DNA from: Pseudomonas fulva
GTDB lineage: Bacteria > Pseudomonadota > Gammaproteobacteria > Pseudomonadales > Pseudomonadaceae
Direction of reading: 5' to 3'
Assembly: GCF_023517795.1 (NCBI RefSeq)
Contig: NZ_CP082928.1
Coordinates: 620,001-684,000 of the forward strand
Length of the DNA stretch: 64,000 nucleotides
The notes under the pieces are model-generated. The model ran no database searches. It was given only the letters and a program-made list of their open reading frames with translations, and was not told the origin of the DNA. Position numbers and translations under genes: made by a program. Below are positions 10,857-60,233 of the stretch, piece after piece. Position 1 is the first letter of the stretch. Each line of letters opens with the position of its first letter.

Positions 10857-10991
10857 GCTGTTGAAAAACTAGCTGCGTTGCCATCGCGGCGTTAAAAACA
10901 GGCTCAAAATGCTCATGTACTATTCGTACACTCCGCTTTTTCGCATGTTTTTGCCTTGCGCTGTCTGCCTCGCCTACGTTTTTCAACGGCC
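10857..10991 (+). repeat. Family A palindromic element, copy A1
   Basis: Terminal arms GGCTGTTGAAAAAC and GTTTTTCAACGGCC are complementary. The interior carries the family landmarks GGCGTTAAAAACAGGCTC, GCTCATGTAC-loop-GTACACTCCGC and TTTTTGCCTTGC. The tip stem is TGTAC/GTACA. It lies between tRNA-Arg(CCT) and the 3' end of the indolepyruvate oxidoreductase gene. Confidence 0.8.
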
Positions 10992-11053
10992 TGTTTGGGC
11001 GCCGGGCGGCATGTTAACCAGCGCAAGCAGATTTGTCATGTCGGTGCAGGCAA

Positions 11054-14000
11054 TCAGGCCGCCGGCTCGAACAGTTTCACGACCACCGCCTGGCCCGACT
11101 TGAGCCTCGCCTGCAAGTGTTGCTCCTGGGCGCGCACCCGCTCCACGGCCTTTTCCTTGACGTGCCCATAGCCACGGATCTGCTCTGGAAGCTCGGCGAT
11201 GGCCAGCGCGGTGTCGTAGTTGCCCGCATCCAGCGCCTCCAGCAACTGACCAACACTGCGCTCGTAGTCGCCGATCAACGCCTGCTCCAACTGCCGCTCC
11301 TCGCTACGGCCGAACGGATCCAGCCAGGTGCCACGCAGTACCCGTAACTTGGCCAGTACCTTGAAGGCACTGAGCATCCACGGCCCGAAGCTGCGCTTGC
11401 GCGGTTCCCGCGTCACCGGATCGGTGCGGCTCAGCCAGGACGGCGCCAGATGGAACTGCAGGCGGAAATCGCCCTGGAACTGCGCGTGCAGTGCCTCGCT
11501 GAACGCTGCATCGCTGTACAGGCGTGCCACCTCGTACTCGTCCTTGTAAGCGAGAAGCTTGAAGTAATAACGCGCCACCGCCTCGGTCAGGCGCTGCCGG
11601 GGATCCGTGTCACGGGCGCGAACGCGACCGACCAGCTGACGGTAGCGATCGGCATAGCGGGCGTTCTGATAAACCGTCAGGCGTGCGACACGATCTTCGA
11701 TGATTTCATCGAGCGTCGTGCAGCGCTTGCTCTCGGCGCCCTGCGGGCGCACCAGGCGCTCGATGGCAGCGGCGTCGTAGGCCGCCCGACGCCCCCACAG
11801 AAACGCCTGCTGGTTGAACTCGACCGCCACGTCGTTCAGTTCGATGGCCCTGTCGATGGCTTGGGCGCTGATGGGCACCAGGCCTTTCTGGTAGGCATAG
11901 CCGAGCATGAACAGGTTGGTGGCGATGCTGTCGCCGAGCAGACGGGTCGCCAGTTGCGTGGCATCAACGAACCAGGTTTTCTCGGCACCTACGGCGTCGA
12001 TCAGCGCCTGGCGCATCGCCGGTCCCGGTACCTGAGCGTCCGGGTTGCGGGTGAATTCCGCCGTGGCCGCCTCGTGATCATTGATCACCGCGTGGGAAAC
12101 CTTCTCGTTGAGCTTGGCCAACGCGTCCTCACCGGCGGCCACCACCAGGTCGCAGCCGATCAGCAGGTCGGCTTCGCCGGCGGCGATCCGCACGGCGTAG
12201 ATATCGTCCTGCCGGGCGGCGATGCGCACGTGGGTGTTCACCGGCCCGAACTTCTGCGCCAGGCCGGCCTGATCGAGCACGGTGCAGCCCTTGCTTTCCA
12301 GGTGCGCGGCCATGCCCAGCAGCGCGCCCACGGTGGTCACGCCACTGCCGCCGACGCCGGGCAGCAGGATGTTCCAGGGCCGTTCCAGGGATGGCTGCCG
12401 CGGCTCCGGCAAGGCCACGAACAGCGCCCCGGCACCGAGCGCCTGGGGTTGGCGCAGCTGGCCGCCGTGCACGGTGACGAAGCTGGGGCAAAAGCCATCG
12501 AGGCAACTGAAATCCTTGTTGCAGGCGTTCTGGTCGATTTCCCGCTTGCGCCCCAGCTCGGTTTCCAGGGGCAGCACCGACAGGCAGTTGGACTTCACGC
12601 TACAGTCGCCACAACCCTCGCACACCGCAGCATTGATGAACGCACGCCGCGCCGGATCGACCAGCTTGCCACGCTTGCGACGACGACGTTTCTCGGTCGC
12701 GCAGGTCTGGTCGTAGATGATCACCGACACGCCCTTGAACTCGCGCAGCTCGCGCTGCACCGCGTCGAGCTCGCGGCGATGATGAAAGCTGGTGATCGGC
12801 GCGAAGGTCGAGCGGCTGGGGTACTTGTCGGGCTCGTCACTGACCACCGCGATGCGTTTGACGCCTTCGGCGAATACCTGCTGGCTCAGCTGATCGACCC
12901 GTAATTCGCCGTCCACGGGCTGGCCGCCGGTCATGGCCACCGCATCGTTGTAGAGAATCTTGTAGGTGATGTTCACCCCCGCCGCCACCGCAGCACGCAG
13001 CGCAAGATGGCCGGAATGGAAGTAGGTACCGTCACCCAGGTTCTGGAACACATGGGGGGTATCGGTAAATGGCGCCTGGCCGATCCAGGTCACCCCTTCG
13101 CCGCCCATCTGGGTAAAGGTGTCGGTGCTGCGGTTCATCCATTGGGTCATGTAGTGGCAGCCGATGCCGCCCATCGCACGGCTGCCCTCAGGCACCTTGG
13201 TCGAGCTGTTGTGCGGGCACCCGGAACAGAAATGCGGCGTGCGCACGGTGCTGTAACTGCGCGCCGCCAGGGCCTTTTCCTTGGCCTCGAGAAAGCCCAG
13301 GCGCGCCTCGATCGCGGCGCTGGTGTAGATCGGCGCCAGGCGCCGGGCGATGACCCGGGCGATCATCGCCGGGGTCAGCTCGCCCAGGTTGGGCAGCAGT
13401 GACTGGCCCTGCTCGTCGAACTCGCCGACCACCCTGGGCCGTTTGCCCACCGGCCAGTTGTAGAGCTGCCCGGTCAACTGATCCTCGATGATGCTGCGTT
13501 TTTCCTCGACGACCAGAATCTCGTCCAGGCCCTCGGCGAAGCCATGCACGGATACCGGCTCCAGCGGCCAGCTCATGCCGATTTTCAATACCCGCAGACC
13601 GATCTGCGCGCAGAGCGCCTCGTCCAGGCCCAGGTCATCCAGTGCCTGACGCACATCGAGGTAGGATTTGCCGGTGGTGATGATTCCCAGGCGCGGATTG
13701 GGCGCATCGAGCATCACCTTGTTGAGGCCATTGGCACGGGCGAAGGCCCGGGCGGCGTAGATCTTGTAGACGTTGAGGCGCTTTTCCTGGGCCAGGGGCG
13801 GGTCGGGCCAGCGAATGTGCACGCCGTCCTCGGGCAATTCGAAGTCAGCCGGGATGCTGACCTGCACCCGCTGCGGATCGACATCCACCACGGCCGAGGA
13901 GTCGACGTTCTCGGCAATGGTCTTCAGCGCCACCCAGCAGCCGCTGTAGCGCGAAAGCTCCCAGCCGATGATGCCGTAATCGAGGATCTCCTGAACGTTG

Positions 14001-14521
14001 GCCGGGTTGAGCACCGGCATCGACGCGGCGATGAAGGCATGCTCGCTCTGGTGCGCGATGGTCGAGGATTTGCAGCCATGGTCGTCACCGGCCAGCACCA
14101 GCACGCCGCCATGGGGCGACACGCCGGCGGAGTTGCCATGCTTGAACACGTCGCCGCTGCGATCGACACCGGGGCCCTTGCCGTACCACATGGCGAATAC
14201 GCCGTCGTAGCGTGCACCGGGAAACAGGTTGGTCTGCTGGCTGCCCCACACCGCCGTGGCGCCAAGCTCCTCGTTGACCCCTGGCTGGAAATGAATGGCG
14301 TTCTGCTGCAGGAACTCGCGCGCCTCCCACAGGCTCTTGTCCAGGCCGCCCAAGGGCGATCCACGATAGCCGGAGATGAAACAGGCGGTATTCAACCCGG
14401 CGGCCGCGTCCCGCTGCTTCTGCAGCATGGGCAGGCGGGTGAGCGCCTGGGTGCCGGTGAGGTACAAATGGCCCGTCGCGAGACGGTATTTGTCGTCCAG
14501 ACGGATTTCGGCCAGAGACAT
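11054..14521 (-). CDS. Indolepyruvate ferredoxin oxidoreductase, fused subunits
   Basis: Oxidatively decarboxylates aryl-pyruvates (or branched 2-oxo acids) to acyl-CoA with ferredoxin. The 1155-residue polypeptide joins the parts that are separate in archaeal IorAB. The N-terminal pyrimidine-binding part holds ISGYRGSPLGGLDKSLWEA. The TPP-binding middle holds CSGCPHNSSTKVPEG and GGIGCHYMTQWM. A Cys-rich Fe-S segment (CEGCGDCSVKSNC, CNKDFSCLDGFCPS) is followed by a gamma-type domain (LLPGVGGSGVTTVGALLGMA). An Lrp/AsnC gene is transcribed divergently and is the likely regulator. Confidence 0.92.
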   Translation of the reverse strand: MSLAEIRLDDKYRLATGHLYLTGTQALTRLPMLQKQRDAAAGLNTACFISGYRGSPLGGLDKSLWEAREFLQQNAIHFQPGVNEELGATAVWGSQQTNLFPGARYDGVFAMWYGKGPGVDRSGDVFKHGNSAGVSPHGGVLVLAGDDHGCKSSTIAHQSEHAFIAASMPVLNPANVQEILDYGIIGWELSRYSGCWVALKTIAENVDSSAVVDVDPQRVQVSIPADFELPEDGVHIRWPDPPLAQEKRLNVYKIYAARAFARANGLNKVMLDAPNPRLGIITTGKSYLDVRQALDDLGLDEALCAQIGLRVLKIGMSWPLEPVSVHGFAEGLDEILVVEEKRSIIEDQLTGQLYNWPVGKRPRVVGEFDEQGQSLLPNLGELTPAMIARVIARRLAPIYTSAAIEARLGFLEAKEKALAARSYSTVRTPHFCSGCPHNSSTKVPEGSRAMGGIGCHYMTQWMNRSTDTFTQMGGEGVTWIGQAPFTDTPHVFQNLGDGTYFHSGHLALRAAVAAGVNITYKILYNDAVAMTGGQPVDGELRVDQLSQQVFAEGVKRIAVVSDEPDKYPSRSTFAPITSFHHRRELDAVQRELREFKGVSVIIYDQTCATEKRRRRKRGKLVDPARRAFINAAVCEGCGDCSVKSNCLSVLPLETELGRKREIDQNACNKDFSCLDGFCPSFVTVHGGQLRQPQALGAGALFVALPEPRQPSLERPWNILLPGVGGSGVTTVGALLGMAAHLESKGCTVLDQAGLAQKFGPVNTHVRIAARQDDIYAVRIAAGEADLLIGCDLVVAAGEDALAKLNEKVSHAVINDHEAATAEFTRNPDAQVPGPAMRQALIDAVGAEKTWFVDATQLATRLLGDSIATNLFMLGYAYQKGLVPISAQAIDRAIELNDVAVEFNQQAFLWGRRAAYDAAAIERLVRPQGAESKRCTTLDEIIEDRVARLTVYQNARYADRYRQLVGRVRARDTDPRQRLTEAVARYYFKLLAYKDEYEVARLYSDAAFSEALHAQFQGDFRLQFHLAPSWLSRTDPVTREPRKRSFGPWMLSAFKVLAKLRVLRGTWLDPFGRSEERQLEQALIGDYERSVGQLLEALDAGNYDTALAIAELPEQIRGYGHVKEKAVERVRAQEQHLQARLKSGQAVVVKLFEPAA

Positions 14522-14590
14522 AAGACGGCGCTCCTGTTGTTTTTATAGCGACCTGTCAGGTGACACGGTTAATCACCTGCCTGCATCCAT

Positions 14591-14859
14591 TAGGGTCTGT
14601 TGACGTTTCAACGCGAGCCGCGTTGCCGCGAGAAATCTCGCCAGGCTAGGCGGAGGACGCAGGCAATGGTTGTTCCCTTGCCAAGTCCTCCAACAACGCA
14701 TGGCGAGATTTCTCGCGCAACCCGAAGGGCCGGGCCCGTTTTTGCGCGATGCGGCGTTACTCGATGGCTCATTTGGCCCACCAAACTTCGCATCTCGTGC
14801 CTTGCCTCGCGCAAAAACGGGCTCCGGCGCGGCCGTGCGTGAAACGTCAACAGACCCTA
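14591..14859. repeat. Family B palindromic element, copy B2
   Basis: A 269-bp element with perfect 20-bp terminal inverted repeats at 14591-14610 and 14840-14859 (TAGGGTCTGTTGACGTTTCA inward). A second perfect 16-bp inverted pair is nested in its left half (14628-14643 with 14701-14716, GCGAGAAATCTCGCCA). No open frame of note lies inside. It fills most of the divergent spacer between the indolepyruvate oxidoreductase gene and the Lrp gene, so it separates their promoters. Confidence 0.85.
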
Positions 14860-14986
14860 GTATCACTGCGAGGATGACTGCCTTAAGCATAGACCGGAGC
14901 GTGGCGATTTTTTCTTTCCCATTCATGCCGTCAACGCCAATACTGCGCATGAACGTTTCGAAAATAATCACAAATGGGAAACGAAC

Positions 14987-15454: not shown

Positions 15455-15632
15455 GCCCCAACAGCAGCCGTGCATTTTGCAACGCGGCAATCCAGGCACC
15501 TTGCAACATGCACGGAAAAGCCTAGGAGCATCATATTCAAATCATTGATTTTAAAGGGTTTTTCTAGGGTAAATTCCTGGCACGAGAACTGCTATTTCCC
15601 TCGCATAGAATTCGAATGCGAGAACCCATTCC

Positions 15633-15869: not shown

Positions 15870-15879
15870 GCGCCTGACC

Positions 15880-16026: not shown

Positions 16027-16053
16027 ATGGCAACCCTGCCGCGCGAGGAGAGC

Positions 16054-20020: not shown

Positions 20021-20097
20021 TGGCGGACTCAGGAGGATTCGAACCTCCGACCGCTCGGTTCGTAGCCGAGTACTCTATCCAGCTGAGCTATGAGTCC
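20021..20097 (-). tRNA. tRNA-Arg(ACG), copy 1
   Basis: A 77-nt cloverleaf with encoded CCA: acceptor GGACTCA/TGAGTCC, anticodon stem CTCGG/CCGAG with loop CTACGAA (ACG), and T arm GGAGG-TTCGAAT-CCTCC. It reads CGN Arg codons after A34-to-inosine editing. This is the most downstream of three near-identical copies. Confidence 0.97.
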
Positions 20098-20206
20098 GTT
20101 ACAGATCACCTGACAGCTACTACGCTTTCACGCGATTTTTGGCGCTTTTAGACCAGATCACCGCTGGTTGAAACAAACGATTTGCACTGCTGCAAGCCAT
20201 TCAATA

Positions 20207-20283
20207 TGGCGGACTCAGGAGGATTCGAACCTCCGACCGCTCGGTTCGTAGCCGAGTACTCTATCCAGCTGAGCTATGAGTCC
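20207..20283 (-). tRNA. tRNA-Arg(ACG), copy 2
   Basis: Identical over all 77 nt to copy 1, with anticodon ACG and encoded CCA. It is 186 bp away in a tandem array. Confidence 0.97.
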
Positions 20284-20393
20284 GTTACAGATCACCTGAC
20301 AGCTACTACGCTTTCACGCGATCTTTGGCGCTTTTAGACCAGATCACCGCTGGTTGAAACAAAATGGCCTGCACTGCTGCAAGCCATCCAATA

Positions 20394-20470
20394 TGGCGGA
20401 CTCAGGAGGATTCGAACCTCCGACCGCTCGGTTCGTAGCCGAGTACTCTATCCAGCTGAGCTATGAGTCC
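20394..20470 (-). tRNA. tRNA-Arg(ACG), copy 3
   Basis: Identical over all 77 nt to the other two copies, with anticodon ACG and encoded CCA. It is nearest to tRNA-Ser(GCT) and therefore first transcribed of the three. Confidence 0.97.
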
Positions 20471-20538
20471 GTTGGTGTTTTTATACCAGATCACCTCTGG
20501 TTGTTTGCCAGCCCGGTAGAACCCGGCTTGCCAAATAA

Positions 20539-20629
20539 TGGCGGAGAAGGGGGGATTCGAACCCCCGACACCCTTTTGAGGTGTACTCCCTTAGCAGGGG
20601 AGCGCCTTCGGCCACTCGGCCACCTCTCC
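20539..20629 (-). tRNA. tRNA-Ser(GCT)
   Basis: A 91-nt class II tRNA: acceptor GGAGAGG/CTTCTCC, discriminator G, encoded CCA, anticodon loop CTGCTAA (GCT) and a long variable arm (TACACCTCAAAAGGGTGTC). It lies directly downstream of csrA, a usual Pseudomonas arrangement. Confidence 0.97.
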
Positions 20630-25058: not shown

Positions 25059-25200
25059 GCAGGCTGTGTGAAAACGTGGTGAGCGAAGGTCAGGCAAGGC
25101 AAAAATCGGTGAGGAAGCGGAGTTTACGAGCTGTAAATGAGCATTCCGAACCGATTTTTAACGCAGCATGGCCGAGCGCAGTAGCTTTCACACAGCCTGC
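25059..25200 (-). repeat. Family A palindromic element, copy A2
   Basis: Terminal arms GCAGGCTGTGTGAAA and TTTCACACAGCCTGC are perfectly complementary but differ in sequence from the other copies. The inner stem is AAAATCGG/CCGATTTT in place of the usual AAAACAGGC/GCCTGTTTT, again preserving pairing. The conserved tip CGGAGTTTACGAGCTGTAAA is present. It sits 30 bp upstream of alaS, in its leader or promoter region. Confidence 0.85.
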
Positions 25201-27729: not shown

Positions 27730-30539
<2,810 letters not shown>

Positions 30540-30624
30540 CTATCACTCCAGGCTTCACGGTTGCACGGGCCGGTGCGAGGCGACGGCCCGTTACCTGTAA
30601 CGGCTGCCGCTCTATGACGACCTT

Positions 30625-30766
30625 AGAACCTGTTCAAAGTCTGCTGCGCGTCGGCACTGCGGCGTTAAAAACAGGCTCGGACTGCTCATTTACAGCTTGT
30701 AAACTCCGCGTCCTCGCCTGTTTTCGCCTTGCATTGCTCTAGCTCGCGAGACTTTGAACAGGCTCT
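30625..30766 (+). repeat. Family A palindromic element, copy A3 (inside the AST operon)
   Basis: Terminal arms AGAACCTGTTCAAAGT and ACTTTGAACAGGCTCT are complementary with one mismatch. The inner stem is AAAACAGGC/GCCTGTTTT and the tip TTTACA-gct-TGTAAA. It lies in the 276-bp space between aruG and astD and would form a long hairpin in the operon mRNA. Confidence 0.88.
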
Positions 30767-30812
30767 TACCGGCCGGGGCGGCGCGCCACCCCGGGTCACA
30801 TCAATGGGTTGC

Positions 30813-31829
30813 TCAGGCCTTTACCGCCAGGGGCACCGCCCGCACCTGGTCGCCGACATTCAGGCGCAGCCGCCTGGCGGTCAATGGGTCGACCACCAGG
30901 GTCCCGGCGGCCATCCGCGCGCGGGCCGCGGTGATGCGGCAATCCGCCTGTTTGCGGTTGTGTACCAGGTACACCGGCGCGTCGTCACCCGGCGTGCCGA
31001 TGGCCAACACCAGCAGCTGGCTGTCGCGAATCGCGCGGATCTTGGCGGTTTCCGCCTCGATGGCCGGGCCGGCGTCGAAGATATCGACATAGCCCTGGTA
31101 GCTGAAACCCTCGGATTTGAGCATCGCCAGCGCCGGCTCGGTATCCGGGTGCACCCGGCCGATCACCTCACGGGCGGCCTCGGACAGAAAGCAGGTGTAG
31201 AGCGGAAAACGCGGCATCAGCTCGGCGATGAAGGCCTTGTTGCCGACGCCGGTCAGGTAGTCCGCCTGGGAAAACTCCATGCGGAAGAAGTGTCGGCCCA
31301 GGCACTCCCAGAACGGCGAGCGTCCCTGCTCGTCGGAGACGCCGCGCATCTCGGCGATGATCTTGTCGCCAAACTGCTCGCGAAATTCGGCGATGAACAA
31401 GAAACGCGCCTTGGACAGCAAGCGCCCGTTCAGGCCGGTGCGGTGATCGGCATGCAGGAACAGCGAGCACAGCTCGGAATGACCGGTCAGGTCATTGGCC
31501 AGAAACAGCGTCGGCACCTGGCGGTGGATGCCCAGTTCCTGGGAGGCGCAGACGGTCAGGCCGACCCGGTAGTTGTACCAGGACTCGCGCAAGCCGACCC
31601 CACCGGCGATGGCGGAGATGCCCAGCACGCGGCCGTCGTCATCCTCGAGCACGAACATGTAGTCGCAGTCGCCGCGCTCGGCTTCGCCGCTGAAGGTCTT
31701 TTCGGCGCGGCCGACCCGGTAGGCCAGGCGCGCTTCGTTGGCCGGCAGAGTGGTCAGGCCGGTGCCGGTGCTGCGCGCCAGGTCGATCAGTGCCGGCAGG
31801 TCACTGGCACGTACGGAGCGAACGATCAT
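30813..31829 (-). CDS. aruG: Arginine/ornithine N-succinyltransferase beta subunit AruG
   Basis: Transfers succinate from succinyl-CoA to the alpha-amino group of arginine or ornithine (first AST step) as a heteromer with AruF. GNAT-like AstA fold: MIVRSVRASDLPALIDLARS, CDYMFVLEDDDGRVLGISAI, and ARGLLSKARFLFIAEFREQF-type stretch (GRLLSKARFLFIAEFREQF). The 338-residue length equals that of its neighbour, with clear paralogy. It lies 52 bp after aruF. Confidence 0.94.
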   Translation of the reverse strand: MIVRSVRASDLPALIDLARSTGTGLTTLPANEARLAYRVGRAEKTFSGEAERGDCDYMFVLEDDDGRVLGISAIAGGVGLRESWYNYRVGLTVCASQELGIHRQVPTLFLANDLTGHSELCSLFLHADHRTGLNGRLLSKARFLFIAEFREQFGDKIIAEMRGVSDEQGRSPFWECLGRHFFRMEFSQADYLTGVGNKAFIAELMPRFPLYTCFLSEAAREVIGRVHPDTEPALAMLKSEGFSYQGYVDIFDAGPAIEAETAKIRAIRDSQLLVLAIGTPGDDAPVYLVHNRKQADCRITAARARMAAGTLVVDPLTARRLRLNVGDQVRAVPLAVKA

Positions 31830-31881
31830 GCTGCCTCCGGAAAATGGCGAGCCAGACGGGTGGCGTTTACGATGGGCAGGC

Positions 31882-32898
31882 TCATACCGCCACCAGCCTT
31901 ACCTGGCCGCCCTCGGCGACGCCAAGGATCTGCGCGGTCTGCGGGTCGAGCAGCGCAGGCTGGCCCGGCGCCCAATTGAGTTCGGCGACCACGGCGCGAA
32001 AGCCCTGCAACTGCTCGTTGCTGACCAGGTACGCCTGGCCGCCCTCGCCCGCTTCGCCGAGCATCACCGGCACCACCGCGCTCTGGGCGATGGTGCGAAT
32101 GCCCGAGGTACGTGCGTGCAGGGTCGGGCCGCCGTCGAAGATATCGATGTAGTGATCGGTTTCGAAGCCGTCGCGCATCAGGATGTCGAACGACACCTGG
32201 GCACGCGGATGCACCAGGCCCATGGACTCCTGGGCGGTATCCGGCAGCAGCGGCACGTAGATGGGGTAATGGGGCATCAGCTCGGCCAGGTAGGCACGGC
32301 TGCGCAGCCCGCACAGGCGCTCGGCCTCGGCGTAGCTCATGCCGAAGAAATGCCGACCGACCGCATCCCAGAACGGCGACTCGCCGGCGTCGTCGCTCTC
32401 GCCGACGATCTCCACCACCATGGCATCGGCGAAGCGCGCCGGGTGGCAGGCGGCGAACAGCAGGCGCGCGCGGGAGTTGAGCTCGGCCCACACGCTGTCG
32501 ACCAGCCCGCGCTCGACATAGAAGCTGGTCAGCAGGCTGTTGCCGGTCAGGTCGTGACACAGCGACAGCACGTGAATCTTGTTGTGGATCTTCAACTCAC
32601 GGGAGTTGTGAACGAAGGTCTCGTTGCGAAAGCTGTAGAACGGTTCGGAGTAGCCTGCCGAGGCGACGATGCCGGAGCAGCCGGACAGGCGGCCGGTTTC
32701 GCTGTCTTCGAGCACGAAGAAGTAGCGTTCCTCGCCGTTGAAGCTGACCTCGGCGGCGAACGACGCCTCCGAGGCGGCGATCTTGTCGCGCAGCCGCTCG
32801 GCGTTGTCGGGCAGCGAGGTGACGCCCACCGGGCTGTCCGCGGCCAGGCGCTGCACTTCGGCAAGGTCGGTCATTCGCGCAGGGCGCATAACCAGCAT
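31882..32898 (-). CDS. aruF: Arginine/ornithine N-succinyltransferase alpha subunit AruF
   Basis: Partner of AruG in the heteromeric AstA-type enzyme. The N-terminus MLVMRPARMTDLAEVQRLAA, then RYFFVLEDSETGRLSGCSGI and NSRARLLFAACHPARFADAM match the family. It is 338 residues, paralogous to AruG, and lies between aruC and aruG on the minus strand. Confidence 0.94.
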   Translation of the reverse strand: MLVMRPARMTDLAEVQRLAADSPVGVTSLPDNAERLRDKIAASEASFAAEVSFNGEERYFFVLEDSETGRLSGCSGIVASAGYSEPFYSFRNETFVHNSRELKIHNKIHVLSLCHDLTGNSLLTSFYVERGLVDSVWAELNSRARLLFAACHPARFADAMVVEIVGESDDAGESPFWDAVGRHFFGMSYAEAERLCGLRSRAYLAELMPHYPIYVPLLPDTAQESMGLVHPRAQVSFDILMRDGFETDHYIDIFDGGPTLHARTSGIRTIAQSAVVPVMLGEAGEGGQAYLVSNEQLQGFRAVVAELNWAPGQPALLDPQTAQILGVAEGGQVRLVAV

Positions 32899-33024
32899 GG
32901 GGTCACTCCTTCAGCAAGGCGGGGGCATGGCAGCCCAGGCAGCGAGAATCATCGTCCATGGGGCTGGCCGGCATCTGCCGACGCAGCGAATTGAGCAGGC
33001 GGCGCCCAGCCGCCCGTAATGGGG

Positions 33025-34693
<1,669 letters not shown>

Positions 34694-34963
34694 ATGAACG
34701 CCAAAGAAAAACAACTGACCGAACTGCTCACCCTCACCTCTCGCAGCATCACCCACATGACTGCCGCCATGACGGCGTTGTCCTTCGACCTGCTGCGTAG
34801 CGATGACAGCGGCGTTCGCTCTGCCGCTTCGAAGATGATCACCCGCCTCGGCGCGGTGAGCCAGGAACTGGATCAGCAATGGGTGCTGATCAGTGAACTG
34901 ACCGGCGTCGAAGCCCCCATCCGTGTCGATGCCATCGAGGAAGTCCAGCTGCACTCCGCCTGA
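34694..34963 (+). CDS. Small conserved hypothetical protein
   Basis: 89 residues, not recognised with certainty. It is predominantly helical (LTELLTLTSRSITHMTAAMT, SAASKMITRLGAVSQELDQQ) with no signal peptide or membrane segment. An AAGGAA sequence lies about 8 bp before the ATG at 34694; the same frame opens at 34571 without one. Confidence 0.65.
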   Translation: MNAKEKQLTELLTLTSRSITHMTAAMTALSFDLLRSDDSGVRSAASKMITRLGAVSQELDQQWVLISELTGVEAPIRVDAIEEVQLHSA

Positions 34964-35041
34964 GCGCGCGACCTCTCACCTGGGCCGAGGTTTCCATCGG
35001 CCCCTGCTCCATTCCCTCGTGACTCGACGCCATCCCGGAGG

Positions 35042-36094
35042 CTAGGTGCGTGCCACCAGGTATTCGCGCTGCAGCACCTCCACCAGCTCAGCCGCCGGCA
35101 TCGCCCGCGCCAGGGCCGCACCCTGGCCGGCCCAGTGGGCTGCGAATTCGGCGTTGCCGGCCTTGGCAGCGGCAGCGATCAGCTGTTTGCCGGCATCGTA
35201 GGCGATGCCGAAACCCGGCACTGCGGGGTGGCCGGGCGCGCCAACCTCAGCCATGAAACGATTGACGATGCCACGCGCCGGGCGCCCGGAAATCACCCGG
35301 GTGACCTGGGTCAGCTGCGCCCGCTCGCTGCCCAGCATGCGCCGATAGGCCTCGTTGGCGGCCGACTCGGGGCAGAGGATGAACGCGGTACCCAGCTGTG
35401 CGGCGCAGGCGCCCAGGTTCATGACCGCCGCGATACCGGCACCGTCCATGATGCCGCCGGCAGCGATCACCGGGCGCGACAGGTGCTTGACCAGCACCCG
35501 CACCAGGGCCAGGGTGCCGATGCCCTGGTCGTGGGCGGGATCGAACACGCCGCGGTGGCCACCGGCCTCGATGCCCTGGGCGACGATGATGTCGATGCCC
35601 GCCTCCTGGGCCAGCAGCCCTTCTTCCAGGGTGGTGGCCGAGGCCAGCAAGGTGATGCCGGCCCGCTTCAAGGCATCGATACGTTCCTGGGGCGGTAATC
35701 CCAGATGAAAGCTGACGATCGGCGGGCGTTCCTCCAGCAGCACCTCGAGCTGCCCTTCATCCTCCTGGAAGCTGCAGTAGATATCCCGGATAGCCGCTGG
35801 CGCCACGGCGCCGAACTCGGCGAAATAGGGTTGCAGGTGCGCCAGCCATGCCCGCTCCACGGCGGCGTCGGCAACGCTCAGGCGGTGGCAGAACACGTTG
35901 ATATTGAAGGGCTTGCCGGTGGCGGCGCGGGTTTCCCTGATCATCTGCCGGCCGGCCTCGGCCTGCACCGCGGCGATGGAAATCGAGCCCAGCCCGCCGG
36001 CATTGCTGACCGCCGCCGCCAGAGCGGGGGTGGCGGTGCCCGCCATGGGCGCTTGAATGATCGGCAGGTCGATACCCAATACGGCGCAGCTCAT
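35042..36094 (-). CDS. Nitronate monooxygenase family protein
   Basis: FMN-dependent TIM-barrel enzyme oxidising nitronates (or related 2-nitropropane-type substrates). The N-terminus has [20 protein letters not shown]. Later come [16 protein letters not shown] (phosphate-binding and the catalytic-His region AGGH) and [19 protein letters not shown]. The product is 350 residues; the ATG at 36094 is used because the longer frame to 36190 adds residues outside the family. The specific substrate is unknown. Confidence 0.87.
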
Positions 36095-36212
36095 ACGGCG
36101 ATCCTCTAGAGCGTTCAAGACAGGAACCGGGAAGATAGCCCAACTCGCCTCGAACAGGCCATGCCAGGCGCAGCGCCAAGACTGCCACACTGGCGTCGCG
36201 GGCAGCAGGACA

Positions 36213-37175
36213 TCAGCGCAACGCCGGCATGCTCGGCATCGCCGCCAGGGGCATCAGCGCGCCCGGGTGCTGGATCACCCTGCCGGCCAGACGGTGCCCC
36301 CAGCGTGCCGCCGCCTCGAGCCCGCCGCCATGCAGGCGGGCGGCCAGGTAGGCCGCACTGAACGCATCGCCGGCGGCGGTGGTATCCACCACCCGCTCGA
36401 CCGGCTCGGGTTCGACTTCGCCGCGGCCATCGGCCGTGTGCAACAGGCAACTGCGCGCACCGCGCTTGACCACCACCTCGCCTACGCCGAGGCCTGCGTA
36501 ATGACTGAAGAGCTGCTGCGGGGTGGCGAAACCGAATACGGCGACATCGTCCTCCCAGGTAACCAGTGCGATGTCGACCATGCCCAGCAGCGCTTCATGC
36601 TGCCTGCGCGCATCGGCCGCGCCAGGCCACAGGCGCGGCCGGTAATTGTTGTCGAAGACGATGCGCGTGCCCCGGCCGCGTGCCTGGCGCAGGGCCTCCA
36701 GCAGGCGCTCGCGCCCCTCGACCGTGAGAATGGCCAGGCTGATACCGCTGAGATACAGCGTGTGATAATCGCCAAGCGCCGCCAGCAGCTCGTCGGCGCC
36801 CGGGCCATCGAAACAATGGCGGGCGGCGGACTCGCCCCGCCAGTAGAGAAAACTTCGCTCGCCCTGGGCGTCGGTCTGGATCATGTACAGGCCCGGCAGC
36901 CGATCCGCCAGCACCCGCACGCGGCCATCACCCACGCCGTCTTCACGCCAGCGCGCGCGCATCGCCTGGCTCAACGGGTCGTCGCCCACGGCGGTGAGGT
37001 AGTCGATCGCCACGCCTTCGCGCCGGCACAGGCGGTTCAGGTAGATCGCCGTGTTCAGCGTGTCGCCGCCGAAGCCTTGGCGCATGCCGCCGTCAGCCTG
37101 CCGTTGCAGCTCGACCATGCACTCGCCGATCAGGCCGACCGCTATCGGTGATGTCTGGTTGGTTGGGGTCGACAT
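36213..37175 (-). CDS. PfkB family sugar kinase (2-keto-3-deoxygluconate kinase-like)
   Basis: ATP-dependent ribokinase/PfkB-fold kinase of 320 residues. N-terminal [11 protein letters not shown] and [16 protein letters not shown] correspond to PfkB motif 1. The C-terminal motif 2 [18 protein letters not shown] contains the catalytic Asp. The pattern resembles KdgK. The ATG at 37175 (MSTPTNQ) follows GGAG. It lies next to a D-amino-acid locus; the specific substrate is not determined. Repeat A4 separates it from the next gene. Confidence 0.8.
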
Positions 37176-37230
37176 GGAGGCTCCTGTATCTGCGTGCATC
37201 AGGGTTGAATAGGCCATCTACCGGGATCTC

Positions 37231-37386
37231 AGAGCCTATTCAAAGTCTCGCGAGCTAGAGCAATGCAAGGCCTAGGCGGCCCCACAAAAACAGGCGAGGA
37301 CGCGGAGTTTACGAGCTGTAAATGAGCAGTCCGAGCCTGTTTTTAACGCCGCAGTGCCGACGCGCAGCAGACTTTGAACAGGTTCT
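37231..37386 (-). repeat. Family A palindromic element, copy A4
   Basis: Reverse orientation of A3, with arms AGAGCCTATTCAAAGT and ACTTTGAACAGGTTCT, inner stem AAAACAGGC/GCCTGTTTT and tip TTTACGAGCTGTAAA. It is longer because of an extra AGGCCTAGGCGGCCCC-like patch at about 37268-37286. Its right end meets the stop codon (37386-37388) of the D-threonine-aldolase-like gene. Confidence 0.88.
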
Positions 37387-38606
37387 CAGAAGCGCGTCGG
37401 CATCACCTCCAACACCTCCAGCGCCTCGTCGACCAGCAGCACCTGCCGCCATTTGTCGAAGGTGAGGCAAGGGTGCGAGGTGCCGAAGGAAAGAATGTCG
37501 CCGACCGCCAGGGTCTCGCCGGCCGGCACCGACAGGAACAGGTGCTGATCCATGATCATACGCACGCCCCAGCCACGCACGTCCTGTGGGGCCTGGCCTT
37601 CGCGGTACAGATGCTGGGGCATCGGCAAGTCGGGGTCGCAGCCGATGTCGCGCTTGCCGAGGGCGACGATGGCCAGGCCCGGCTCAGGCAGCGATTGCAC
37701 ATGGGCGAACACCTCCAGGGCAGGCAGCAGCTCGCCCTCGAGGTCCGCATGGCGCGCCTTGACCTCCTCCATCGCGCCGGCATACAGCTTGTGGTCGTGC
37801 ACCACGTAGCAGCCGGGGCGCAGCAGCGGGATGTACTGGCCGCGCAGCTCGGCGCGGTCGAAGGCTTCGGCGATCAGATCGAACCATTTGGAGCCGGAGG
37901 CGGTGACCACCGGCTTGTCGGCGGTAAAGGCAGCGCTGCGTTTCAAGCGCATCAGGGTGTCCACCAGGCGCGCGCCATAGGCCCGCACATCGGCAATCGG
38001 CGTTTGTCCGCCAATGATGCCCTCGTAGCCCTCGATGCCGGACAGCACCAGGGCGCTCGACTGCTCCAGCGCCATCAGCAGCGCCTCCAGCTCGCCATCG
38101 TTGCGCACGCCACAACGGCCGCCCTCGACGCCCAGCTCGATCATCACCTGCAATCGCAGGCCGCGGGCCGCGAAGAACGCATCCAGCGCGCGGACGTTGG
38201 CCACGCTGTCGACCACGCAGTGGAACTCAGCGCCCCTGGCGATGAGATCGGCCACCAACGCCATGTTCGCGGCGCCGACCAGCTGGTTGGCCATCAGCAG
38301 GCGCGTCACGCCGTGCTCGAACGCCGCCATGCACTGGGTGGCGGTGGCGAGGGTGATGCCCCAGGCCCCGGCGTCGAGCTGACGCTGGAACAGCGCCGGC
38401 GTCATGGTGGTTTTGCCATGGGGCGCCAGCCGCGCAGCGTGGCGCTCGGCGAAGGCTTGCATCCAGGCGATGTTGTGCGCCAGTGGGCGCTGGTACACCA
38501 CCGCGGCCGGCAGGCTGACGTCGCGCAGCAAGGCGCGCCCGCTACCGATGATCGCGGCTTTCTCCACGCCGCTCGGCGGCGCGTCGTTCTGGTCAGCAGG
38601 CTTCAT
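37386..38606 (-). CDS. DSD1/D-threonine aldolase-like PLP enzyme
   Basis: Fold-type III (alanine racemase N-domain) PLP enzyme, likely to deaminate or cleave a D-amino acid (annotated elsewhere as amino acid deaminase). PLP Lys in RLAPHGKTTMTPALFQ, then GITLATATQCMAAFEHGVTR. The C-terminal DSD1 metal-binding motif is FGTSHPCLTFDKWRQVLLVD (His and Cys zinc ligands), as in metal-dependent D-serine dehydratases. The product is 406 residues. It is divergent from the RpiR regulator, with deacylase and RidA genes beyond. Confidence 0.85.
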   Translation of the reverse strand: MKPADQNDAPPSGVEKAAIIGSGRALLRDVSLPAAVVYQRPLAHNIAWMQAFAERHAARLAPHGKTTMTPALFQRQLDAGAWGITLATATQCMAAFEHGVTRLLMANQLVGAANMALVADLIARGAEFHCVVDSVANVRALDAFFAARGLRLQVMIELGVEGGRCGVRNDGELEALLMALEQSSALVLSGIEGYEGIIGGQTPIADVRAYGARLVDTLMRLKRSAAFTADKPVVTASGSKWFDLIAEAFDRAELRGQYIPLLRPGCYVVHDHKLYAGAMEEVKARHADLEGELLPALEVFAHVQSLPEPGLAIVALGKRDIGCDPDLPMPQHLYREGQAPQDVRGWGVRMIMDQHLFLSVPAGETLAVGDILSFGTSHPCLTFDKWRQVLLVDEALEVLEVMPTRF

Positions 38607-52116: not shown

Positions 52117-53037
52117 ATGTGGTTTCGCAACCTGCTGGTCTACCGCCTTACCCAGGACGTCGACTTCGACACCGAAAAACTGCAGGCCGCACTGGCCGCC
52201 AAGCCGGCCCGCCCCTGCGCCAGCCAGGAACTGGCCACCTATGGCTTCGTCGCCCCGTTCGGCAAGGGTGAAGACGCGCCGCTGGTGCACGAGAGCCAGG
52301 GCTTCCTGCTGATCTCGGCGCGCAAGGAAGAACGCATCCTGCCCGGCAGCGTGGTCAAGGACGCCGTCAAGGAAAAGGTCGACGAGATCGAAAGCGAGCA
52401 GATGCGCAAGGTCTACAAGAAGGAACGCGAGCAGATCAAGGACGAGATCGTCCAGGCCTTCCTGCCCCGCGCCTTTATCCGCAAGTCGGCGACCTTCGCC
52501 GCCATCGCGCCGGCCCAGGGCCTGATCATCGTCAACGCCTCCAGCCCCAAGCGTGCCGAAGACCTGCTGTCGACCCTGCGTGAAGCCATCGGCTCGCTGC
52601 CGGTACGCCCGCTGACCGTGAAGATCGCCCCGAGCGCGACCATGACCGATTGGGTCAAGGCCCAGCAGGCTGCCGCCGACTTCCACGTGCTGGACGAATG
52701 CGAACTGCGCGACACCCACGAGGATGGCGGCATCGTGCGCTGCAAGCGTCAGGACCTGACCGGCGAAGAGGTGCAGCTGCACATGAGCTCGGGCAAGCAG
52801 GTCACCCAGCTGTCCCTGGCCTGGCAGGACAAGTTGTCCTTCGTGCTCGACGACAAGCTGGTGGTCAAGCGCCTGAAGTTCGAAGACCTGCTGCAGGAGC
52901 AGGCCGAGCAGGATGGCGGCGACGACGACCTGAGCCAGCAGGACGCCAGCTTCACGCTGATGATGCTGACCCTGATCGAGTTCCTGCCGGCACTGTTCGA
53001 AGCCCTGGGCGGCGAAGACACCCCACAAGGGCTCTAA
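52117..53037 (+). CDS. rdgC: Recombination-associated protein RdgC
   Basis: Ring-shaped DNA-binding protein that tempers RecA activity. The 306-residue product opens [20 protein letters not shown] and contains [20 protein letters not shown] and [20 protein letters not shown], all family landmarks. Length is normal. Its TAA stop (53035-53037) overlaps the start of repeat A5. Confidence 0.96.
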
Positions 53038-53154
53038 AGGCTGCTGCGCGTCGGCCCTGCGGCGTTAAAAATAGGCTCGAAATGCTCATGTACAAAAGTA
53101 CACTCCGCTTTCTCGCCTATTTTTGCCTTGCAGGGCTCTAGCTCGCGCGCCTTT
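53036..53154 (+). repeat. Family A palindromic element, copy A5
   Basis: Short copy with arms AAAGGCTGCTGCGCG and CGCGCGCCTTT. Its inner stem has changed to AAAATAGGC/GCCTATTTT and its tip to TGTAC-aaaa-GTACA, both retaining base pairing. It begins on the rdgC stop codon. Confidence 0.85.
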
Positions 53155-54423: not shown

Positions 54424-54490
54424 ATAGCGGTGCACGCCGGGGACGACCCCGGGTTTGCGTGCCTACTGCCGGGGACGACCCCACCGCTAT
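54424..54490 (+). promoter_or_regulatory. Guanidine-II (mini-ykkC) riboswitch upstream of gdx
   Basis: Two hairpins with the identical loop ACGA on GC stems: CCGGGG-ACGA-CCCCGG (54437-54452) and GGGG-ACGA-CCCC (54471-54482). Tandem ACGR-loop hairpins just before an SMR gene are the mini-ykkC signature, the guanidine-II riboswitch class. In the known mechanism guanidine binding brings the loops together and exposes the Shine-Dalgarno. Here a 9-bp stem (54424-54432 with 54482-54490, ATAGCGGTG/CACCGCTAT) closes around both hairpins, and the Shine-Dalgarno (TGAGGG, 54494-54499) follows it. Confidence 0.9.
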
Positions 54491-56730: not shown

Positions 56731-56825
56731 CGAGACCTTTCCTTATGCGGATTCGATGAGCATTGGACTGCAACGGCCCGGGCAAAGCCACAGCCGCGGA
56801 GATTTTTGTCGACCGCTGCGCCTTT

Positions 56826-57716
56826 TCAGTTGAACAGCGGGTTGCCGCGCAGCCGCGCCACCGCCAGGTCGACGAAGGCGCGTACCTTGGCCGGCGCCTG
56901 GCGGCCTTCGGGATACAGCACGTGGATCGGCAGCGGCGGCTCCTCGAAGCCATCGAGCACGATCTGCAGGGCGCCCTCCTGCAACGCCTGGCCGACCTGA
57001 TAGTGCAGCACCCGGGTCAGCCCCCAGCCAGCGCGCGCCGTGGCGATGGCCGATTCGTTGGTGTTGCACTGCAGCACCGGATCGACGAGCACCCGTTGGC
57101 CCTCGGCAAAGCGCCACTCCGGCGAGGCCCAGGCGCTCTGCGAAACGGCGATACGGTGGTGTTTCAGCTCGGCGGGCGTGGTCGGTACGCCATATTTCGC
57201 GAGGTAGGACGGCGCCGCACAGATCACCCGGCGCACCGAGCCGACCTGGATGGCGGTGAAGCCCGAGTCCGCCAGGTGACCGATACGCACTGCCACGTCG
57301 ATGCCCTCATCGACGATGTTCACCGGGCGGTCGACGAAAAAGGTCCGTGCGTGCATGCCCGGATAGGCATCCAGGTAATCGAGCACCAGGGGCAGCACGT
57401 GCAGGTGGCCGAACATCGACGCCGCGGTGACGGCCAGGGTGCCGGACGGCTCGGCGTAATGGCCGGCCGCGGCCAGTTCCGCCTCGGCGATGTCGGCGAG
57501 AATGCGCCGGCAGTCCTGCAGGTAGCGACTGCCCGCATCGGTGGTCTTCACCGAGCGCGTGGTGCGCACCAGCAGCCGTGCGCCGATCAGGTCCTCGAGG
57601 CCGGCGACGATGCGTGTCACCGCCGGCGCGCTCATGTGCAGCTGCCGCGCGGTACTGGCGAAACTGCCCGTCTCCGCGACCTTTACGAATACCCGCATTG
57701 CCTGCCAACGATCCAT
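56826..57716 (-). CDS. LysR family transcriptional regulator
   Basis: A 296-residue LTTR: N-terminal winged HTH (WQAMRVFVKVAETGSFASTA, APAVTRIVAGLEDLIGARLL) and a LysR substrate domain (~90-290). The second-helix pattern suggests the CrgA/DhcR-type group. It lies on the same strand as the flanking fusion genes, not divergent, so its target is uncertain. Confidence 0.9.
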   Translation of the reverse strand: MDRWQAMRVFVKVAETGSFASTARQLHMSAPAVTRIVAGLEDLIGARLLVRTTRSVKTTDAGSRYLQDCRRILADIAEAELAAAGHYAEPSGTLAVTAASMFGHLHVLPLVLDYLDAYPGMHARTFFVDRPVNIVDEGIDVAVRIGHLADSGFTAIQVGSVRRVICAAPSYLAKYGVPTTPAELKHHRIAVSQSAWASPEWRFAEGQRVLVDPVLQCNTNESAIATARAGWGLTRVLHYQVGQALQEGALQIVLDGFEEPPLPIHVLYPEGRQAPAKVRAFVDLAVARLRGNPLFN

Positions 57717-57862
57717 CTGCCCGCTCCTCTGCTCAAGCGCTGGCTGCGCTGGTGGCGCAGCCCAGCGAGTATGCCGTATCCAAGCGTCTTGAGCGGCGAT
57801 GCCATTTAAGGCTGCACGGTCAGGCGCCTATGCAGGAGCGCATGCCTGCCATCCGCAATCGC

Positions 57863-57884
57863 GTAGGAGAGGCTTCAGCCTCGA
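57863..57884 (+). repeat. Possible REP-like palindrome
   Basis: GTAGGAGAGGCTTCAGCCTC (57863-57882) is a hairpin of a type scattered in Pseudomonas intergenic spaces. Only one clear unit is present. It lies in the 253-bp space between the LysR gene and the PNPOx-FNR fusion; the rest of that space shows nothing. Confidence 0.4.
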
Positions 57885-57969
57885 GCTCTTGTGCGCCCTG
57901 CCGGCCGAATTCGAGCCTGAAGGCCCACAAAAGCTGCGCGGACTGCCACAGATTCGGTTGCTGCACCGA

Positions 57970-60036
57970 TCAGAGCGCCAGCTCGAGGCGCCCGTCATCG
58001 GCGCCTTGCGGCTGCGCCGGCACTGCACAGCAGATCAGCACTTCATCGTCGCCGTGGGGCGCGCTGGGTTCTTTCAGGTAGCTCACCGCGCCTTTCACCA
58101 GCCGTGTCTTGCAGGTACCACAAGAGCCTTCGCGGCAACTGAACTCCGGTTCCAGGCCGCGGGCTTCGGCCAGTTCAAGCAAGGTGCCGGAGCCTGGCGT
58201 CCAGCGCCCCTCCTTCAGCGATTCGGTAAACAGCACCGGCACCGCCTCGGTGGCCGGCGGAGCCGTCACGGCGGCCGTCGCCGGCCGATCGGGGCGACGC
58301 ACCAGGGACGCCGGCCCGAAGCCTTCGGCGTGAATGCGCCCGTCGGCGATGTTGTAGCCGCGCAGGCCGTCGTACAGCCCCTGGGTGAAGGCCGGCGGCC
58401 CGCACAGGTAGAAAGCGTAATCGTCGAAGGCCAGATAACGGGTCAGCAGTGCCATATCGATGCGCCCGGCGGTGTCGTAATCGACACCCGGCTCGGCGCC
58501 ACTGGTGTCGCTCAGCACCCGCACCAGCCTGACCGCGCCCTGGGCCGCGGCCACCAGATCGGCCAGCTCGCGGTCGAAGGCCCGCTCGGCCTTCGAGCGC
58601 GCGGCGTAGAACAGCGTGACCGGCTTGATCCGCTGCCGGCGCCAGCCTTCGTAGACCACATGGCGCAGCATCGCCAGCATCGGCGTGATGCCGATACCGC
58701 CGGCCAGCAGCACCAGCGGGCGCTGCTCCTGCGCGTCGAGGGTGAATGCCCCGGCCGGCGCGCGGGCGTCGATCAGGTCGCCCTCGCGCAACCCGTCATG
58801 GATGAATTGCGACACCCGCCCCTCGCGCTTGACGCTGATCCGGTAGATGCCGTCGGCCGGCGCCACCGACAGGGTGTAGGTGCGAATCAGCGGCTTTTCA
58901 TCCACGCCAAGCTGCAGCCGGATCGGCAGGTGCTGGCCAGCCAGGTGCGGCAACAGCCCGGCGCCATCGACCGGTTCGAGGTGCAGCGAGCGGATCGAGC
59001 GGCTTTCCTGAACGATGCGCGTGATCTTCATCGGCCGCCACTGGGTGGCGTACCGGGCGGCGCGCAGCTGATCGGCGGCCTGCTGCCAGTTGCCGGTGAG
59101 CAGCGAACTGTCCGCCCAGCCGTCATCGCGCAGGGCCCAGCGCAGAGCCATGGCGCCCGGGCGGCGAAGGATACGCCGGGCCCGGAACGTCCACAGCCGT
59201 TCGGCCCCCTGGAAAGCAGCGATTTCCGGTGAGTCGAAGATGACCTCGGCGTCGCCGCTCAGTTGCAGCACATCACCCGTGGCGAAATCCACGAACAACA
59301 GGCCGGCCCTGCCGTTGAGCACGATATTGCCGAGGGTGGAAAAGAACAGGTTGCCGTTGAAATCCGGGATGGTCAGGGTGCCATCCGCCGCGACCCGCAC
59401 GAAGCCGCTGTTGCCGCCACGGTGCGAAACGTCCACCTGGCGATGCCCCTCGACATCGGCGTAGGTGGCCACGAAAAAGGTGTCGGCGCCTTCGATCACT
59501 GCCCGCGCCGCGGCATCCAGCGCCGGCAGCTGCTCGACGGTAGCGGCGAACGGCGCCGCCGGATCACGGGCGAAGGTGAAGTCGCGCTGCTGGATATAGC
59601 GCGGGCAATTGCCGAAGCTCTGCTCGACCTCCACCCGCAGGCCCTGCGAACCGGCCGCCACCACACCATTCATGCGGTTACGCCGGCGGGTGTGCAGCTC
59701 GATACCCAGCAGCCCCAGCGCGGCGCCCTCGCCCATGCCCTGAGCGATGGGATCACCGGCCTGCGGCCACGCGGCGATATCCAGCACGGTAGGCGCTGGC
59801 GAGGTCATGAAACCAGCCTGCCCTTCGAGCATGCCGGCCCAGGGGTCGCCTTGCGCATCCACGCTGCCCAGCACGATAAACGGCAGCTGGGCGTAGAACT
59901 CGCGGTGCTGGTCGGGCATGAAGTCGCGCACCACACGCTGGCCGACCGCGTCCATCCGTTCGGCGACGCCGAGCTGGTTCTGGATGAAGGTTTCGCCCTG
60001 GTGCCAGGTGGCGGGCGTGCTCGTCAGATCGCTCAT
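57970..60036 (-). CDS. PNPOx-like/ferredoxin reductase/2Fe-2S three-domain oxidoreductase
   Basis: A 688-residue fusion. Residues ~1-310 form a PNPOx-like split barrel (MPDQHREFYAQLPFIVLGSV, FFSTLGNIVLNGRAGLLFVD). Residues ~325-570 form a ferredoxin-NAD(P) reductase unit (HLPIRLQLG, VLLAGGIGITPMLAML, YLCGPPAF). A C-terminal plant-type 2Fe-2S domain follows, with ligands in FSCREGSCGTCKTRL and ICCA. The start is the ATG at 60036. The organisation suggests a self-contained NAD(P)H-to-FMN/Fe-S electron chain acting on an unknown substrate. Confidence 0.88.
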   Translation of the reverse strand: MSDLTSTPATWHQGETFIQNQLGVAERMDAVGQRVVRDFMPDQHREFYAQLPFIVLGSVDAQGDPWAGMLEGQAGFMTSPAPTVLDIAAWPQAGDPIAQGMGEGAALGLLGIELHTRRRNRMNGVVAAGSQGLRVEVEQSFGNCPRYIQQRDFTFARDPAAPFAATVEQLPALDAAARAVIEGADTFFVATYADVEGHRQVDVSHRGGNSGFVRVAADGTLTIPDFNGNLFFSTLGNIVLNGRAGLLFVDFATGDVLQLSGDAEVIFDSPEIAAFQGAERLWTFRARRILRRPGAMALRWALRDDGWADSSLLTGNWQQAADQLRAARYATQWRPMKITRIVQESRSIRSLHLEPVDGAGLLPHLAGQHLPIRLQLGVDEKPLIRTYTLSVAPADGIYRISVKREGRVSQFIHDGLREGDLIDARAPAGAFTLDAQEQRPLVLLAGGIGITPMLAMLRHVVYEGWRRQRIKPVTLFYAARSKAERAFDRELADLVAAAQGAVRLVRVLSDTSGAEPGVDYDTAGRIDMALLTRYLAFDDYAFYLCGPPAFTQGLYDGLRGYNIADGRIHAEGFGPASLVRRPDRPATAAVTAPPATEAVPVLFTESLKEGRWTPGSGTLLELAEARGLEPEFSCREGSCGTCKTRLVKGAVSYLKEPSAPHGDDEVLICCAVPAQPQGADDGRLELAL

Positions 60037-60073
60037 GGCTGTTCTCCCGGTGGCGGCAGCGGCGTGGATGCTT

Positions 60074-60233
60074 AGAACCTGTTCACGAGCTAGCGAGCTA
60101 GAGCCATACAAGGCAAAAACAGGCGAGGAAGCGGAGTTTACGTGCTGTAAATGAGCATTCTGACTGGGCTGGCAATCCAGCCTGTTTTTAACGCCGTAGG
60201 GCCGACGCGCAGCAGATCGTGAACAGGTTCTTA
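60074..60233 (-). repeat. Family A palindromic element, copy A6
   Basis: Arms AGAACCTGTTCACGA and TCGTGAACAGGTTCT are perfectly complementary over 15 bp. Inner stem AAAACAGGC/GCCTGTTTT, tip TTTAC-gtgct-GTAAA, plus an additional internal stem (GGGCTGGCAATCCAGCCTG). The right end is the TAA stop codon of the GST gene (60231-60233). Confidence 0.9.

Follow-up and report, generated by a model that had tools for sequence, protein, structure and literature searches.

The question raised by this locus is what moves a short palindromic repeat that carries no transposase gene, and what keeps it folded. A 64,000-nt stretch of the Pseudomonas fulva genome (assembly GCF_023517795.1, contig NZ_CP082928.1; bases 620001-684000 of a 5.44-Mb genome in a single contig), hereafter the window, contains six copies of such an element. 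We consider it quite probable that these are miniature inverted-repeat transposable elements (MITEs) mobilised by insertion sequences (IS) of the IS5 family, and that they are built around a conserved folded core belonging to a cross-phylum superfamily in which the enterobacterial repetitive intergenic consensus (ERIC) is very likely a branch. An original prediction, made from the letters of the window, had described the six-copy family and its pairing arms; what goes beyond it is the core shared across phyla and with ERIC, the finding that five of the six insertions are missing from a close relative, and the placement of copies 4 and 6 in stop codons.

The six copies lie where they had been placed, with the motifs quoted for them, and they form a single family: a Pseudomonas-type covariance model of 98 positions and 29 pairs (R1) recovers all six at 73.7-109.5 bits, and by alignment copies 1, 3 and 5 are on the forward strand and copies 2, 4 and 6 on the reverse strand. 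Copy 1 (10857..10991, model core 10875-10972) has ends of type II (GGCTGTTGAAAAAC / GTTTTTCAACGGCC) and copy 2 (25059..25200, model core 25081-25178) ends of type V (GGCTGTGTGAAAG). Type I ends are found on copy 3 (30623..30768, core 30648-30745), copy 4 (37229..37388) and copy 6 (60072..60233, with a 16-nt inner insert), and the limits of these three include flanking 3-bp duplications, namely TTA in copy 3 (30623-30625 and 30766-30768), TCA in copy 4 (37229-37231 and 37386-37388) and TTA in copy 6 (60072-60074 and 60231-60233), which move the limits given originally by 1-2 bases. The original description needs correcting for copy 5 (53036..53154, model core 53048-53144), where no terminal repeat can be classified. 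No copy in the window has a transposase inside it. Genome-wide, R1 has 81 matches at E <= 10, of which 74 are at E < 0.01 (counts from 150 of 1388 first-look candidates that were scored), and an exact core pattern matches 32 times against none for the reversed pattern.

Evidence of movement comes from the relative G001, which is 90% identical across its main match. Copy 5 is common to both genomes, while copies 1, 2, 3, 4 and 6 are missing from G001, whose sequence is otherwise collinear at these sites apart from small differences close to those of copies 4 and 6. At the empty sites of copies 3 and 4, G001 carries a single TTA and a single TCA, respectively, where the host genome has the triplet on both flanks; at the site of copy 6 it reads TCA where the host genome has TTA, that is, one later change. 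The duplication is therefore clear in copies 3 and 4, present with one later change in copy 6, and ambiguous in copies 1 and 2. Among 62 elements with type I ends, 39 have matching 3-mers on both flanks (shuffled mean 14.2, maximum 24 in 2000), and TNA is the left-hand triplet of 54 and the right-hand triplet of 56. The absence of five of the six copies from G001, together with the TNA duplications, thus identifies the family as real, recently mobile MITEs: its members are short and repeated, lack a transposase gene inside, have inverted ends and target duplications, and are polymorphic in insertion.

The position of several insertions relative to genes could be read in another way. The right-hand TCA of copy 4 is the stop codon (TGA) of the open reading frame (ORF) 37386-38606 on the reverse strand, and the empty site in G001 has the same stop; the right-hand TTA of copy 6 is likewise the stop codon (TAA) of the reverse-strand ORF 60231-60848, the corresponding gene end in G001 reading TGA. 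In the 135 of 168 copies used for this count, frames of at least 80 codons terminate exactly at the left boundary of the element in 33 and at the right boundary in 21. Such placement would be expected if the elements were functional RNAs or terminators at mRNA 3' ends, kept as hairpins that end, process or stabilise transcripts, with mobility being secondary. Consistent with this, 47 copies in the host genome have a gene called on each side, and in 31 of them the upstream gene is directed into the GCGTT arm, which is some excess of elements in sense behind that gene; such a gene ends 50-61 nt before the core in 16 copies, compared with 4 at the mirror-image distance. When it lies at the 3' end of a gene, ERIC has also been reported to alter mRNA stability (PMC10969869, PMC2229807). 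However, TAA and TGA themselves fit TNA, and the duplication restores them, so that insertions there would be harmless and would survive. The stop-codon sites of copies 4 and 6 can thus be accounted for by TNA insertion without invoking a function, and the duplication itself can create stops. Scanning 30400-37600 for terminators gave 5 (shuffled mean 3.5), all of them outside copies 3 and 4. Together with the base-pair counts given below, this makes a primary RNA function quite unlikely in our judgement.

If the elements are moved in trans, their ends should resemble those of autonomous IS. At 49 places in the genome (a set that includes at least one chance match within a gene, at 2415264), the left arms were called as type I in 13, II in 10, III in 5, IV in 5, V in 1, I+III in 1 and unclassified in 14, the same type being found on both arms in 26. 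Type I elements are inserted at TNA and types II and IV at TAG/CTAG-like sites. The type II ends (CAGGCCGTTGAAAAAC) equal the ends of a 1331-bp IS in the relative G012, the left end of which was read at five loci and both ends at three, with CTAG on both sides in all three. Its transposase matches NF033581 (IS5 family) and the Pfam domains DUF772 and DDE_Tnp_1, and is 100% identical to proteins on four plasmids annotated ISPst12. The type IV ends (TAGGCTCTGTACGAAAAG) flank 951-bp elements in G057 and G450, and a close variant (TAGGCTCTGTACGTAAAG) flanks a 925-bp element in G421; in the two examples examined (G057 and G421) this IS has two ORFs and matches NF033580, again of the IS5 family, over its cut-off, with DUF4096 in G421 and DDE_Tnp_1 in both. 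By sequence comparison, then, two end types pair with two different IS5-family elements. ISPst12 and the two-ORF element are like the MITEs in having terminal repeats equal to types II and IV, and differ in carrying a transposase gene and in showing no hairpin core in the end regions read. The original prediction had held that a match to a known IS end would count against it; such a match is there for type II (ISPst12-type), and it explains how the elements could move while the finding itself stands.

Movement in trans, as had been suggested, fits both the transposase-free copies and these matching ends, and several transposases of the IS5 group most likely move the MITEs in this manner. The elements would be recognised at their outer inverted repeats by IS5-family DDE transposases, type I elements going into TNA with duplication of 3 bp, and types II and IV into TAG/CTAG-like sites. 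In this one genome the same core is found on at least five end types; since two of these match different IS5 elements, recombination has probably joined it to different ends. Relatives of the window element are few on plasmids (14 records) and phages (1 record), and nine stretches of viral contigs fit the core pattern; a search of phages with the bridging copy L331 gave no match, nor did a search of plasmids with a core-less type I element.

What is carried by these ends is a conserved folded structure. From the outside inward, an element consists of the 3-bp duplication (in type I), an inverted end of ~15-18 bp, the stem P0 (8 pairs, mostly with one pyrimidine mismatch), and then the core, with GCGTT at its left edge and GCCTT at its right edge. 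Within these borders follow P1 (10 pairs), TC/TC, and P2, which has 4 pairs, a bulged T, and then G-C and C-G; inside P2 is an internal loop of TCA/CTCC, and at the centre is the P3 hairpin (5 pairs) with a variable tip. Most elements are 140-160 bp in length, ~145 nt being typical. In copies with both arms readable, the outer ends vary by lineage, while the distance from end to core is ~50-60 nt in most insert-free ones. Inner inserts are found at recurring positions, for example TGTGGGGCCGCCTAG 3' of the right strand of P1. Folded as DNA, copy 3 takes the nested structure of the model (z -7.87, equalled by none of 200 shuffles). The ortholog of copy 5 in G001 (L373) has gained or kept three inner inserts with its stems still paired, and the two together offer a case for dating the growth of these elements.

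The pairing is maintained by compensating changes. Alignments A2 and A3 were drawn from the 60 of 158 copies that pass a pairing filter (at least 7 of 10 pairs in P1 and 11 of 16 in the ends), A3 holding 48 of those 60. In these 48 filtered copies 93.0% of 1392 cells are paired, against 77.3% when shuffled, and 235 cells have changed on both sides, against 67.9 shuffled and 10-44 when partners are slid by 1-3 columns; two-sided change is seen in 20 of the 29 pairs. The same holds for the 158 unselected copies, where the mean number of Watson-Crick pairs is 6.75 of 10 in P1 (4.14 with random partners, top of 200 shuffles 4.52), 3.46 of 4 in P2 (2.23, top 2.42) and 10.39 of 16 in the ends (7.29, top 7.68). 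An independent test is possible for P3, because one core pattern leaves two of its pairs free: both are kept in 143 of the 150 matches listed, and in 90 of the 97 distinct ones, compared with a shuffled value of 25.6 and a highest value of 40 in 2000 shuffles. A wider set, A4, consists of 63 hand-picked rows; six whose tip stem is broken were excluded, as were several more, so that its 100% pairing in P3 reflects selection. Paired cells make up 94.1% of this set, P3 being selected, and 81.3% after shuffling, and 77 cells have changed on both sides against 18.2. The compensating arm changes described originally are thus far above shuffled and slid controls, and the proposed check by covariance model, many loci and transposase-free copies came out in their favour. 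Two causes underlie the differences in arms between copies: the inner stems change by compensating substitutions, and the outer ends vary because they correspond to the ends of distinct IS5-family elements.

The counts of G.U against A.C cells, taken as a test for a fold acting as RNA, are mixed. P1 has 8 to 19 and P2 has 4 to 1; the excess of G.U in A4 (17 to 4) would favour an RNA, but G.U does not exceed A.C in A3 (20 to 24), and in unselected copies that keep 6 or more of the 10 P1 pairs it is the lower of the two in P1 (12 to 33). Conserved unpaired letters combined with Watson-Crick pairing would suit a reader of folded single-stranded DNA, such as the RAYT (Y1) transposase that moves repetitive extragenic palindromic (REP) and REPIN elements by reading single-stranded hairpins. 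These are described as palindromes of 20-40 bp with GTAG or CGTC at one end (PMC3733652). The elements here are ~145 nt, not 20-40, and have ends that match DDE-type IS5 elements at TNA or CTAG sites; we did not assign them to REP/REPIN, and movement by such a transposase is very improbable. Integron attC sites carry paired R and L boxes read by the integron integrase; IS-type ends and TNA duplications speak against this class.

The core recurs in Bacteroidota, in several proteobacterial classes and in a Bacillota metagenome-assembled genome (MAG), with near-zero controls. Scanned over one genome per species, the exact pattern fits at least 118 stretches. The matches listed include proteobacterial carriers (Pseudomonas, Halomonas, Salinicola, Chromobacterium, Nitrosomonadales, Rhizobium and a Mariprofundales MAG) as well as Bacteroidota (Alistipes, Rikenellaceae, Prevotellaceae, Tannerellaceae and Pedobacter), the Bacillota MAG and the clostridial isolate Oceanirhabdus. 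MAG labels may be wrong in places, as the copy in the Pedobacter MAG resembles the proteobacterial type. With a relaxed pattern 73 of 276 Gammaproteobacteria genomes are positive, 21 with at least 5 matches and one with 185, compared with 17 matches, at most one per genome, for the reversed control over the 276. The genome with 185 (G246) is only 2.4 Mb in size, giving about one match per 13 kb and none in the control. In 32 genomes reached through named loci, and thus picked for having a match, the counts were 187 in the Mariprofundales MAG, 172 in a Nitrosomonadales MAG, 72 in Pseudomonas EpS/L25, 71 in the Bacillota MAG, 41 in a Prevotellaceae genome, 39 in Rhizobium paknamense and 37 in one Alistipes, and 1-3 in Opitutia, Motiliproteus, Oceanirhabdus, Flammeovirgaceae, Chitinophaga, Stutzerimonas azotifigens and Methylophaga; the reversed control gave 2 matches over all 32. 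The Opitutia match has a broken stem and should not be counted.

The arrangement of this core closely resembles that of ERIC. A second model (R2, 74 positions) was built from the 63 cores of A4, all from other bacteria; some rows are from Gammaproteobacteria, for which an enterobacterial source is possible, and none is an ERIC by its letters. Searched against E. coli DNA totalling 250 kb (K-12 MG1655, 200 kb; another strain, 50 kb), R2 gives two matches at E <= 10, and both are ERIC (35.3 bits, E 2.2e-7; 32.4 bits, E 1.6e-6; E-values rough), being one site, between ybhI and ybhJ, in two strains. Five more ERIC copies, from plasmids of Pantoea, Lelliottia, Citrobacter and two Klebsiella, align across all 74 positions at 17.8-37.5 bits (E 0.018 to 3.2e-8); the two Klebsiella copies share one site, and as the five were retrieved by similarity to the ERIC core, what they add is confined to how well their flanks fit. 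No other match was found in the 150 kb of K-12 included in that search. On its opposite strand the core reads GGAG-YTTAC-loop-GTAAR-TGA, and the E. coli ERIC reads GCGTT-18-TCACTTAC-TTAT-GTAAGCTCC-20-GCCTT. ERIC and its synonyms IRU and RU-1 thus share with the window family a short, transposase-less hairpin repeat, a TCA-YTTAC...GTAAR-CTCC centre, and GCGTT and GCCTT at like spacing. They differ in their outer ends, described as a terminal repeat of 7 bp with a TA motif (PMC2229807), as opposed to IS5-type ends at TNA or CTAG sites, and no inner stem like the P1 of the Pseudomonas type is seen in them. The central palindrome and flanking motifs of ERIC are therefore present in the window family and its terminal repeats and overall consensus are not, which makes the family a relative of ERIC within a superfamily and not ERIC itself.

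Several observations weigh against parts of this interpretation. The ends are unclassifiable in 14 of the 49 copies typed, and in 2 the two arms are called differently. An autonomous IS with type I ends, the commonest type, was sought and not found, types III and V being outside that search; what it gave instead was more MITEs, some with REP-like inserts as judged by eye. No transposition event has been seen, and the role of the matching transposases is deduced from their ends. The flanking 3-mers match in 27 of 44 type I elements with a core and also in 12 of 18 without one, and because core-less elements are duplicated alike, the core is not required for movement. As for ERIC, R1 scores it weakly (11.9 bits, the best of 12 in its 2 kb), and its ends and inner stem are unlike those of the Pseudomonas family.

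These last points, together with the shortness of the conserved stretch, would be expected if the likeness to ERIC were due to chance or to convergence on a short hairpin motif and the cross-phylum matches were unrelated MITE families. In addition, ERIC was noticed before R2 was built, and the pattern used to gather rows for R2 also fits ERIC. However, GCGTT and GCCTT flank ERIC at the family spacing, an arrangement equalled in 14 of 200,000 shuffles with the centre ignored (at offsets picked after seeing ERIC), and R2 matches ERIC alone in the 250 kb of E. coli. The ERIC-like arrangement CAG-TCA...CTCC-TG is seen in a copy from Bacteroidota (L379), and four Gammaproteobacteria genomes among the matches listed carry tips of the ERIC type (TCACTTAC...GTAAGCTCC). 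We therefore regard chance or convergence as unlikely and descent of the core and ERIC from a common ancestor as likely, although not proven, with ERIC very likely forming one branch of the cross-phylum superfamily.

Two observations on the type I elements deserve separate mention. About a dozen core-less elements with type I ends (L434-L444) were read in the host genome, for example at 3391854, 2412687 and 3641852, and several of them hold palindromes that resemble, by eye, the GTAG-type REP/REPIN of Pseudomonas, as if REPINs were nested in MITEs. A further type I-ended element of ~1.8 kb at 931248-933033 of the host genome (L436) has TTA on both sides and a 373-aa ORF that is IS481-like by eye; it is probably an IS inserted into a MITE.

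Within the window, R1 also detects two diverged relatives on the forward strand, with cores at 14740..14818 (43.0 bits) and 8052..8130 (21.5 bits). They belong to a second subfamily (window 8038-8172 and 14640-14870; also L310-L322), in which a 79-nt core (GGCGTTTCTCGCCGGCTCATTTAGCTAGCTAAACTTCGC...) lies within a longer repeat, D4, that terminates in ...AACAGACCCTAG; 13 more copies were read elsewhere in the host genome. Other features of the window are tandem tRNA genes on the reverse strand at 20024-20629, three of them within 159-nt direct repeats, and, on the forward strand, matches to the guanidine-II riboswitch (54435-54483) and the PrrF small RNA (10471-10621).

The original prediction recognised no named family, and within Rfam this is correct: none of 4227 models covers the elements at gathering or permissive thresholds. 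The idea of a skipping-rope RNA found no support there. In the open-access literature we found no account of this family, nor of relatives of ERIC outside Enterobacteriaceae and Vibrionaceae, and of the papers found for the core letters themselves none is, by its title, about a repeat element. ERIC is described as a MITE of these two families (PMC10969869). Other known systems resemble the family in single respects. RUP of Streptococcus pneumoniae is alike in that its ends match an IS thought to mobilise it, IS630-Spn1 (PMC2229807), and differs in being of IS630 type with a TA target and a single end type, the comparison being one of ends. TIMEs (PMC4133298) and MITEPsy (PMC3189936) are transposase-less elements of Pseudomonas, the same bacterial group; TIMEs differ in their 262 bp, Tn3-type ends and 5-bp duplications.

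Why the core has been kept is a matter on which we can offer only a tentative suggestion. It is possible, though we would not put it higher, that an ancient cross-phylum core has repeatedly been carried on different IS5-type ends as a structured passenger retained because it serves some function itself, such as binding a widespread host factor, and that ERIC is its enterobacterial branch. If true, this would be a bacterial counterpart of the superfamilies of short interspersed nuclear elements (SINEs) in eukaryotes, which keep a core while changing partners. ERIC is used for typing by the polymerase chain reaction (ERIC-PCR). In one review, how such repeats move is treated as a question for the future, RUP with IS630-Spn1 being the one pairing made by ends (PMC2229807). 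A relative of ERIC whose ends match identifiable IS5 transposases would open the movement of these repeats to a direct mobilisation test. Finally, a core conserved in both letters and fold, and found on different transposon ends, suggests that many repeats that look unrelated may be one superfamily that can be searched with one model.

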